A DNA stretch of 64,000 nucleotides, from the NCBI GenBank assembly GCA_028697145.1, contig JAQVFR010000002.1:87394-151393 (forward strand), written 5' to 3'. Source of the DNA: Actinomycetota bacterium. Lineage in GTDB: Bacteria; Actinomycetota; Geothermincolia; Geothermincolales; RBG-13-55-18. The notes beneath the pieces are model-generated. The model did not search any database and was not told the DNA's origin. It saw only the letters and a list, made by a program, of their open reading frames with translations. The position numbers and the translations under genes were made by a program. This document shows, piece after piece, positions 6,513-8,550 of this stretch (the stretch's first letter is position 1; the number at the start of each line of letters is the position of its first letter).

Positions 6513-7669
6513 CAATCCGGAGCCAGCTTTATCTCCGTAAAACCGCCGAAGTCTCCGGCCATGCGTTCGTACACCGCCTTGCCCACCAGGAACTCGTAGA
6601 TCTCATCTGCCTTCGCAACGGGGTCCACGTCCTCGAAGGCATGCGGGAAGATGGCCTTGCCCATGAAGTACGTATCGGCGAGGGCGGTGTCGATATTGGT
6701 AGCGTAGAAGTTGAAGGGCAGGTAGCCGTAGAGGCGGCCTTCCTTGACCGCTTTCAGGGCATTATAGAGACCGGGGTTGCCGGCGTAATCATCCCTCACC
6801 ATCTGCAGCCCGACCTCATCTACGAATATGATCTCAGGGTCCCAATGCAACAGCTTCTCCTTGTCGATAATCACGCTCCCGCCGGCCCCCGTCTCGTCCA
6901 CCACGTTAAGGGCGTTTGCGGCGTCCAGGGGAGGGAATTCCGCCTGGGTGCTTTCTATGCCATGGGTGCCCTTCATACCCAGCCCACCCGCGTAAACGGC
7001 AGGTTTATCCACCTCGGGGATGTCCGCGGTGCGCTCTTCCACGTCATCAAGGCATCCCCTGATATATCCCGCCACCTTTCCCGCCCGCTCCGAGTCGCCT
7101 GTCACCTCTCCGACGATATCGATGGACTCGAATACCTCTTCGTCGAACGTTCCCAGCCGACCGTAACTCAGCACCACCACCGGGATGCCCGTCTTGTACT
7201 GCAGCTCGTTCGCCTTCGCCGTGTCCACGAGGTAAGCGGCGAAAATCACGTCGGGGTCCACGGTGATGAGCATCTCGGGATCGGGGGTCGAGTCCGGGCC
7301 GCCCTGTCCGATGACCGGCAGCTCGAGTAGTTCGGGATGGGCTATCATGTAAGGCCGGCCGGTGTCCCACTGTATCTCGAATCTCTCTATCCCCACCACC
7401 TTCTCCGCGGCGCCGACGTAACATACGAGGCGCAAGGCTCCCGGTCCTATGGCTACCACTCTCTCGACCGGAGAGTCTATCTCCACCCGGCGGCCGGCCA
7501 GGTCGGTCACGACTGCCACATCCCGGGTTTCCTGCCCATCAGCCGCCTTGCTGCCGCACCCCGCCAACGGCAACATGGCCAGGATCATCGTACAAAGCAC
7601 AGCCATGACGGTTATCCTTGCCCCGGCCGTCATGCCTTCAGCATCATCCGCCCCGCGAAAAACGTTCAT
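6512..7669 (-). CDS. Substrate-binding lipoprotein of FecB/BtuF type
   Basis: A 385-residue extracytoplasmic binding protein for the FecCD importer. Residues near 14-36 form a signal peptide ending in the lipobox LAGC, so it is probably a lipoprotein. The mature part has the typical opening VVTDLAGRRVEIDSPVERVVAIG and the two-lobe helical-backbone pattern of metal-chelate binding proteins. The start is the ATG at 7669, with GAAGGGAG upstream; an earlier in-frame start at 7738 would read through the terminator hairpin and is rejected. It is the first gene of the transporter operon. Confidence 0.9.
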   Translation of the reverse strand: MNVFRGADDAEGMTAGARITVMAVLCTMILAMLPLAGCGSKAADGQETRDVAVVTDLAGRRVEIDSPVERVVAIGPGALRLVCYVGAAEKVVGIERFEIQWDTGRPYMIAHPELLELPVIGQGGPDSTPDPEMLITVDPDVIFAAYLVDTAKANELQYKTGIPVVVLSYGRLGTFDEEVFESIDIVGEVTGDSERAGKVAGYIRGCLDDVEERTADIPEVDKPAVYAGGLGMKGTHGIESTQAEFPPLDAANALNVVDETGAGGSVIIDKEKLLHWDPEIIFVDEVGLQMVRDDYAGNPGLYNALKAVKEGRLYGYLPFNFYATNIDTALADTYFMGKAIFPHAFEDVDPVAKADEIYEFLVGKAVYERMAGDFGGFTEIKLAPD

Positions 7670-7699: not shown

Positions 7700-7735
7700 A
7701 AAAACAAAACCACGAAGGTCTGCGACCTTCGTGGT
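7700..7735 (-). terminator. Intrinsic terminator in the leader of the transporter operon
   Basis: Read on the minus strand, a perfect 12-bp stem (7735-7724 with 7720-7709, 3-nt loop) is followed directly by TTTTGTTTTT. It ends about 31 nt before the start codon of the binding protein. No minus-strand gene lies immediately upstream, so it is placed as a transcription attenuator rather than as the end of a gene. Confidence 0.8.
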
Positions 7736-7992
7736 CACTATTTCTCGTCTTCGATCTCTCGACGTGCTCGTGGCGGCTTCTCGCCGCCGGCTTCTCTTAT
7801 CTGCTCCTTTCTAAAGGATATATGAGGAGCGGTCAATCCGCAAACGCCTGAAAGGGGCTTTGCCCGCTCGAGCCCGTTGCCCTCGATGCCTTCCATGGTG
7901 GAAAATCCATGACAGACGGCGGCACGGAGAGCGTGATTTCCCGACCGTGCAGGACGCACGGGTGGATGTCCCGGGTCGAAGGAGGGCACAGC
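7736..7992 (-). other. Structured divergent leader upstream of the transporter operon
   Basis: The 323-nt gap between the binding-protein gene and the HD gene holds several potential hairpins besides the terminator: GGCGGC/GCCGCC (7772-7777 with 7783-7788), GCTCCT/AGGAGC (7803-7808 with 7825-7830) and a competing CCTTT/AAAGG (7806-7810 with 7813-7817). The element TCGTGG (7768-7773) is also present in the terminator stem, so an alternative pairing is possible. I do not see the conserved boxes of the cobalamin or Moco riboswitches. A metal- or cofactor-sensing leader is inferred. Confidence 0.5.
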
Positions 7993-8550
7993 ATGGATAG
8001 AGAAGAAGCCCTGAAGCTGTTGCATGGCAACCTTCAGGCGGAAAACCTGCTCAAGCACTGTTACGCTACGGAGGCCGTGATGCGGCGGCTGGCGCGGGAG
8101 AGGGGCGAGGACGAGGAGCTGTGGGGGCTCACGGGGCTGCTGCATGACCTTGACCTCGAGACGTGCGGAAACGACATGGCCGTGCACGCCGAAACCGCCG
8201 CGCGCATGCTGGAGGAACGGGGCGCGCCCGCGGAGATGGTGGACGCGGTGCGCATGCACAACGCCGAGGGGCTGGGGCTGGCCGAGAGGTCAACCGTCCT
8301 CCAGCACGCCCTGGCTTCCGCCGAGACGGTGACCGGTTTCATCGTCGCCGCCGCCCTGGTGCGCCCGGACAAGAAGCTGGAGGGGGTGAAGGTGAGTTCC
8401 CTGCGCAAGAGGATGAAGGAGAAGGCCTTCGCCCGGGGAGCGCGCCGGGAGGTCATCGCCGAATGCGAGCAGGCCGGCTTCGAGCTGGACGGGTTCCTGG
8501 CCCTGGCCCTGGAAGCCATGCAGGGTATCTCGGACGACCTCGGCCTCTAG
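7993..8550 (+). CDS. HD-domain phosphohydrolase
   Basis: A 185-residue HD-superfamily protein, expected to be a metal-dependent phosphohydrolase acting on a nucleotide or similar phosphoester. The metal site is suggested by His22 (KHCYATE), the His51-Asp52 pair in LLHDLDLE, and later histidines in VHAETA and MHNAEG. The ATG at 7993 has AAGGAGGG eight bases upstream; an earlier in-frame ATG at 7909 has no such site. The gene is divergent from the transporter and its stop shares the tetranucleotide CTAG with the stop of ispF on the other strand. The substrate is unknown. Confidence 0.85.
   Translation: MDREEALKLLHGNLQAENLLKHCYATEAVMRRLARERGEDEELWGLTGLLHDLDLETCGNDMAVHAETAARMLEERGAPAEMVDAVRMHNAEGLGLAERSTVLQHALASAETVTGFIVAAALVRPDKKLEGVKVSSLRKRMKEKAFARGARREVIAECEQAGFELDGFLALALEAMQGISDDLGL

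Follow-up and report, generated by a model that had tools for sequence, protein, structure and literature searches.

The RNA leader of a metal importer operon in an Actinomycetota genome appears, at odds we put near two in three, to belong to an undescribed family of attenuators for the uptake of nickel, or possibly of nickel and cobalt, that occurs in Actinomycetota and Bacillota and is opened by an RNA-binding factor. Sequence comparison supports the attenuator, the wider family and a metal-uptake regulon. The most likely mechanism is antitermination by a protein; nickel is the hypothesized signal and the protein CooT the hypothesized reader. Since the element fronts many nickel/cobalt importer genes in two phyla, the switch probably controls nickel supply.

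The importer operon and its leader

The leader lies in a window of 64,000 nucleotides, the whole stretch of DNA that was analysed. The genes around it are the following.

7993 to 8550, plus strand: HD-domain protein gene, divergent, the next gene upstream of the operon
7669 to 6512, minus strand: substrate-binding protein of a FecCD-type ABC importer (profile match to Peripla_BP_2, E 1e-17)
6515 to 5391, minus strand: FecCD permease (profile match, E 6e-88)
5394 to 4591, minus strand: ABC transporter ATPase, its start inside a longer ORF (profile match)
4601 to 4113, minus strand: TrmO (TsaA) tRNA methyltransferase, last gene of the operon (profile match)

Among solved structures, 2etv, which was deposited as a putative iron(III) binding protein, comes closest to the binding protein (E 8e-112); the match to HI_1472 (3psa) is far weaker (E 1e-8). 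The following features were assigned upstream of its gene.

7843 to 7838, minus strand: predicted -35 box TTGCGG (from the sequence; TTGCGG or TTGACA-like at the same place in relatives)
7820 to 7815, minus strand: predicted -10 box TATCCT, spacer 17 (from the sequence; TATCCT, TATAAT or TAGAAT at the aligned place in relatives)
7809 to 7670, minus strand: predicted 5' leader RNA of the transporter operon, about 140 nt (from the promoter and the start codon)
7788 to 7772, minus strand: hairpin H1, 6 bp, pentaloop GAGAA at 7782 to 7778 (alignment of relatives; -12.4 kcal/mol)
7738 to 7722, minus strand: hairpin H2, the putative antiterminator, 6 bp GTGACC/GGTCGC, pentaloop ACGAA at 7732 to 7728 (covariation; -7.6 kcal/mol)
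7736 to 7708, minus strand: intrinsic terminator stem-loop (terminator scan; -20.9 kcal/mol; kept in relatives)
7707 to 7700, minus strand: T tract of the terminator (sequence and terminator scan)

The initial annotation had noted a terminator about 31 nt before the binding-protein start with no upstream gene to end. The distance was found to be 30 nt, and there is no gene for the terminator to end because the upstream HD-domain gene is divergent. The terminator has a stem of 13 bp and a loop of 3 nt, followed by TTGTTTTT, which reaches 7700 on the minus strand. The binding-protein ATG lies at 7669, 30 nt past the T tract, with a Shine-Dalgarno sequence within those 30 nt. Between 7400 and 8300, three terminator-like sites were found versus 0.6 in shuffled sequences. 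The promoter pair was picked by eye and is backed by the aligned relatives; a consensus promoter scan of the locus listed no promoter, this -35/-10 pair included. Transcription is predicted to start near 7809 on the minus strand, so most of 7810 to 7992 would be upstream DNA and not leader. The structured leader proposed earlier over 7700 to 7992 thus survives as a leader of about 140 nt rather than about 290. A long riboswitch spanning 7700 to 7992 was rejected, as it would include the predicted promoter and conservation is lacking 5' of that promoter. The fold of a 303-nt stretch beat 100 of 100 shuffles (z -4.6), and since the opposite strand likewise folds better than its shuffles, this z-score alone proves little.

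Mutually exclusive hairpins

H2 (7738 to 7722) occupies most of the 5' arm of the terminator (7736 to 7708). Because this arm contains most of H2, the two structures are mutually exclusive, in agreement with the alternative stems that had been read from the leader before. A transcript cut just after H2 was predicted by folding to form H1 and H2, and the full leader to form the terminator. At -20.9 versus -7.6 kcal/mol, the default should therefore be termination. A terminator between the predicted promoter and the first gene, together with an alternative hairpin, is the layout of an intrinsic-terminator attenuator. The window also has the three marks proposed here for the NGAA-hairpin family, namely an H2 with an NNGRA loop in the terminator arm, a similar H1 upstream and a metal-uptake gene downstream.

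In an alignment of the related leaders described below, the promoter, H1, a variable stretch and the terminator follow in that order, with 33-57 nt between H1 and the CCACG arm (14 leaders). H1 is GGCGGC-GAGAA-GCCGCC in the window, and its stem varies with the loop GAGAA kept (GCCTG/CAGGC in G008, TTGC/GCAA in G016). The terminator stem is conserved in sequence. This is unusual and is explained by H2, which sits in the same letters. In the 11 of 14 leaders used for the covariance model R1, the only one built (G016, G008 and G021 were omitted, their H1 misaligned by MAFFT), the H2 helix pairs in 97% of cells and three of its six pairs have changed on both sides. The covariation score of H1 and H2 in these 11 leaders was above 500 of 500 shuffles, and that of H1 and the terminator was likewise above all shuffles. 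T tracts follow the terminator in 14/14 leaders. The absence of conserved structure from related leaders had been named as a possible refutation; such structure is clearly present.

Three further elements were considered and rejected. A P1 helix can be drawn around H1 in G008 and G007 but is not general, since the predicted start leaves no room for it in G006, G013 and G014. Pairing of the H1 loop with the 3' arm of the terminator (GAAG/CUUC) is broken in G008. As to a leader peptide, frames judged by eye run through the terminator in several relatives, but the frame differs among them and is stopped in others.

Conservation in related Actinomycetota

A DNA search with 7992 to 7660 matched the leader in 8 of 59 related genomes, its own included. 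In the 7 others the leader lies 5' of a class I methyltransferase gene, and the wider operon runs methyltransferase, CooC-like ATPase, binding protein, permease, ATPase and TrmO as far as the contigs extend. A CooC match was not seen in the longer stretches around the leader of G005 or G012. The set reached 14 leaders after G007, G009, G012, G021, G028 and G008 were added. In the window and in G028 the binding-protein gene is the first gene after the leader; G008 shows a binding-protein gene there too, truncated where its contig stops. The methyltransferase and CooC of the wider operon have no close counterpart in the window's genome (best matches 37% and 33% identity), which nevertheless keeps the leader. 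Judged from these arrangements, the leader follows the operon and not one particular gene. Of 296 genomes of the phylum, 10 hold the pattern CCACGAAGG-N3..8-CYTTCGTGG, each at a single place, and the window's own genome holds a single copy even at 3 mismatches.

The covariance model matched 35 of 346 genomes of the phylum at E <=0.05, partial palindrome matches included. Twenty second or weaker places were opened, and the surrounding genes were listed for 17. Nine of the 17 precede CbiM/CbiQ operons, and five of the CbiM/CbiQ places lie directly after CooT and DUF3842 genes (G196, G275, G216, G021, G026). At least three are near NikA-like binding proteins (G006, G012, G009). Others stand before a ZnuABC-like set with a methyltransferase (G166), before a methyltransferase-like ORF (G017) or near chelatase or DUF2149 genes (G235, G004). 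Some of the weaker places, such as those in G061 and G214, look like chance.

Several smaller observations concern these loci. Two such attenuators stand in tandem before one operon at L124 (G002), L116 (G012) and L017. A small conserved ORF (MC..GIN..FKL-like) lies between the element and CbiM at L113 (1097-1384), L117 (1022-1342) and L125 (2674-2907), and no convincing Pfam match to it was found. At L060, L061 and L066, all of one genus, the frame past the terminator opens with a common IPPGE-like peptide about 200-500 nt before the methyltransferase core, possibly a longer N terminus or alternatively a leader peptide. The automatic ORF of the window's binding protein begins at a GTG at 7738 (minus strand) and runs through the terminator, as do the automatic ORFs at L004, L005, L007 and L008. 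Gene callers may thus put the starts of the binding-protein gene and of the relatives' methyltransferase gene too far upstream. At L014, a Spirochaetales record (JAFGSW010000044.1), the operon matches and the binding protein shares 61% identity with that of the window; FmdE lies ahead of the binding protein, and the locus gave no such leader. This contig may be misbinned Actinomycetota.

A wider family in Bacillota

The covariance model gave full-length matches before homologous importer operons of Bacillota (L015, L017, L019, L023, L024), that is, at 5 of 18 loci searched (E 1e-4 to 0.013); the H1 part of the L017 match is not a hairpin. A terminator-only pattern, CCAYGAAGG-N4..34-YTTCRTGGYTTT, matched 5 of the 18 genomes behind L014-L031, with 0 for the reversed control. 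The same pattern was found in 40 of 398 Bacillota genomes, at 81 places and up to 7 per genome, and its reversed control gave 0 in all 398. This genome set is labelled Bacillota after its member G347, the genome of L015 (Desulfotomaculum copahuensis).

For statistics, 82 elements were read from loci. Elements with less than 95 nt upstream and two palindrome double readings were dropped, which left 79, and removal of near-duplicates left 76; the set was found without using the outer pairs of H2. An H1 (stem >=5, loop NNGAA or NGAA) lies upstream in 40 of the 76 (3.3 in shuffles, at most 10 in 200). When the loop pattern was permuted in seven ways, between 0 and 6 of the 76 elements matched, most with AAG-N-N (6, versus a shuffled maximum of 5 in 20), and the pattern A-N-G-A-N, which contains the motif, gave 25. 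With a stem >=4, a looser loop rule and a distance up to 130 nt, H1 was found in 59 of 76, a count that has no shuffle control. The 17 elements in which this looser rule found no H1 within 130 nt count against the family reading. The 59 hairpins have 37 different 4-nt stem sequences and a C-G closing pair in 42, and their linkers to H2 range from 5 to 107 nt (median 53). Two H2 pairs are not fixed by the pattern; the third forms in 74 of 76 (shuffled maximum 71) and the fourth in 61 of 76 (shuffled mean 40, maximum 49). The H2 loop of family leaders is ACGAA or ATGAA, more rarely GCGAA, ACGGA or ATGGA. Most family leaders have an upstream H1 whose loop is of the H2 kind, and many have a third hairpin inside the terminator. 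This third hairpin, with a similar loop type, was found in 37 of 76 elements (2.1 in shuffles, maximum 6); the short terminator of the window is without it.

Genes behind the element and the probable metal

First genes were assigned by rule as ORFs for 69 of 76 elements, and 68 distinct proteins were scanned; families may overlap on one protein. The scan gave CbiM (9), SBP_bac_5 (8), methyltransferases (6), DUF3842 (4), Peripla_BP_2 (4), FmdE (3), [FeFe] hydrogenase (3), ECF S component (3), CobN (2), DUF4198 (2), PDGLE (2) and TrmO (2). Eight of the proteins match NCBIfam nickel_nikA at E 1e-10. CooC, CooT and, as judged by eye, a HypF-like ORF lie close to elements. Nickel is needed for CODH and [NiFe] hydrogenase. 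Taken together, the first genes seem to fit nickel better than cobalt or iron. Cobalt is also compatible, as CbiM and CobN can serve cobalt, and the identity of the metal is read from gene names and neighbours. The ligands suggested by the initial annotation (cobalamin, heme, molybdate, tungstate, iron) omit nickel, the likeliest metal.

The element also stands before [FeFe]-hydrogenase-like genes at L132, L163 and L198. This placement would make sense if cells short of nickel change over to a hydrogenase that does without it, with the [FeFe] enzyme as a presumed nickel-sparing substitute.

Proposed mechanism and the candidate reader

The RNA alone would fall into the far more stable terminator, with the operon off by default. 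Under nickel shortage, the NGAA loops would be held by a factor that binds RNA in trans, probably as a dimer, with H1 as its landing site and H2 bound next. With the factor on H2, the terminator would be blocked and the importer operon transcribed. When nickel is plentiful, the factor would let go and transcription would stop near 7700. The FecCD-type importer of the window is predicted to import nickel or a nickel chelate.

The best candidate for the factor is the nickel-binding dimer CooT, whose family was once labelled a predicted RNA-binding protein. Of 60 element genomes, 56 carry CooT (PF10133), among them the window's, versus 8 of 20 controls (Fisher p 2.4e-6), the controls being hand-picked at spaced numbers among pattern-negative genomes, some of which may carry missed variants. 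CooT would correlate with any nickel regulon, which counts against this candidate. A CooT match was not found in the element genomes G008 (62% complete), G366, G409 and G703; the last two are among the genomes with the element before ECF S-component-like proteins. The window's genome has two CooT copies, both on contigs other than that of the element. In 9 of 44 Bacillota element genomes CooT lies within 2 kb of an element (G360, G381, G422, G444, G464, G479, G544, G589, G672). CooT is described as a dimer that binds one nickel with a Kd of 9 nM, its function being unclear, and its mutants as needing extra nickel (PMC6006190). In the full form of this idea, apo-dimers of CooT, a family so far known only as nickel-binding accessory proteins of CODH, would bind NGAA hairpins and prevent termination, and nickel would release them, giving one switch for nickel import, CODH/hydrogenase maturation and nickel-sparing [FeFe] hydrogenase in two phyla. 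This extended scheme is speculative and, taken whole, rather unlikely. CooT is put forward as a candidate RNA-binding metal sensor that is open to test.

Alternative readings and known systems

A metal riboswitch would need no protein: Ni2+ or Co2+ would bind the NGAA loops directly and thereby change which of H2 and the terminator prevails. The recurrence of purine-rich loops in front of metal importers fits this reading, as does the lack of any partner protein found in every element genome, but a metal that stabilizes H2 would switch uptake on when the metal is plentiful, which is the wrong sign for uptake genes. No compact conserved aptamer was found either, and the linkers between H1 and H2 (5-107 nt, median 53) are very variable; two or three short (N)NGAA hairpins so spaced look more like sites for an RNA-binding protein. 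We consider a protein-free switch unlikely. Of the suggested riboswitch or attenuator before a metal transporter, the attenuator is supported, and the small-molecule riboswitch lacks particular support. The reported absence of the known cobalamin and Moco boxes was borne out by an Rfam search of the window (4227 families), which gave no match at the gathering score. Three weak matches at the locus (Corio-PBP, sraA and mir-H7, E 3.4-4.7) are not credible and were set aside as chance. The same 4227 families gave no match at the gathering score in 20 element loci.

The closest known layout is the ANTAR target RNA. It is described as two small leader hairpins with conserved letters in hexanucleotide loops (A at 1, G at 4), of which the second overlaps the 5' arm of the terminator; in eut the linker is 5-12 nt and lengthening it stops function (PMC3369931, PMC8934654). 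H2 likewise overlaps the terminator 5' arm and excludes the terminator, and ANTAR genes were found in 34 of 44 Bacillota element genomes and 12 of 15 family genomes. The element could thus be read as a variant target of ANTAR-protein antitermination. However, its loops are NNGAA or NGAA penta- or tetraloops and not hexaloops with A1 and G4, its linkers are far longer (median 53 versus 5-12 nt) and its regulon is one of nickel/cobalt uptake. Furthermore, an ANTAR domain was found neither in the leader-bearing genome of the window (G000, 97.6% complete) nor in G005, and it is absent from 10 of 44 Bacillota element genomes. ANTAR control is accordingly very improbable. About equally improbable is an ordinary constitutive terminator or a small RNA (H1, spacer and terminator) without effect on the operon. 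The order of promoter, hairpin, spacer and terminator would suit a small RNA, and the gap to the first gene varies from 30 nt in the window to several hundred in G014. In the window, however, the 30 nt from T tract to ATG would be too little for a separate promoter. Moreover, H2 covaries, for which a plain terminator would give no reason, and the element recurs before metal-uptake genes. The near-perfect palindrome CCACGAAGG...CCTTCGTGG might instead be bound as DNA by a repressor, and its single copy in its own genome even at 3 mismatches would agree with this. Such a DNA operator is the least probable reading, as tens of nt with hairpins among them separate the arms in Bacillota, changes in the stem are matched by compensating ones as in an RNA (G008 is an example) and T tracts follow in 14/14 leaders.

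The element also differs from known metal regulators. The NiCo (czcD) riboswitch has a four-way junction and exporter targets. The element is likewise an RNA tied to Ni/Co genes, but it stands on uptake genes, has no four-way junction and has no Rfam match in the window or the 20 element loci. The cobalamin riboswitch on cobalt transporters is a large aptamer; the element, also a leader before CbiM/BtuF-type transporters, is a short hairpin array, again with no Rfam match at these loci. NikR has target genes of the same kinds (NikABCDE, NikMNQO), but is a DNA-binding repressor and not an RNA attenuator. Among organisms with NikABCDE, a 2009 survey found NikR in less than half (PMC2667541). The element could explain part of this gap, as an RNA signal shared by nickel importers, FmdE, CooC/CooT-linked operons, chelatases and [FeFe] hydrogenase. 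No description of it was found in the literature searched, which did not cover subscription papers or preprints, and a prior description is possible.

Orphan importers of the FecCD, ECF and peptide types could further be assigned their substrates by means of the element. At L145, L203, L207 and L209 the element precedes ECF S-component-like proteins with a common LPMHxPV motif, which are candidates for a new nickel or cobalt importer. Several elements lie within 20-40 kb of one another at L210-L211 (G434), L213-L214 (G615) and L215-L216 (G706). These clusters hold many importers together with FmdE, CobN, chelatase and DUF2149 genes, and each may be a nickel-acquisition island.
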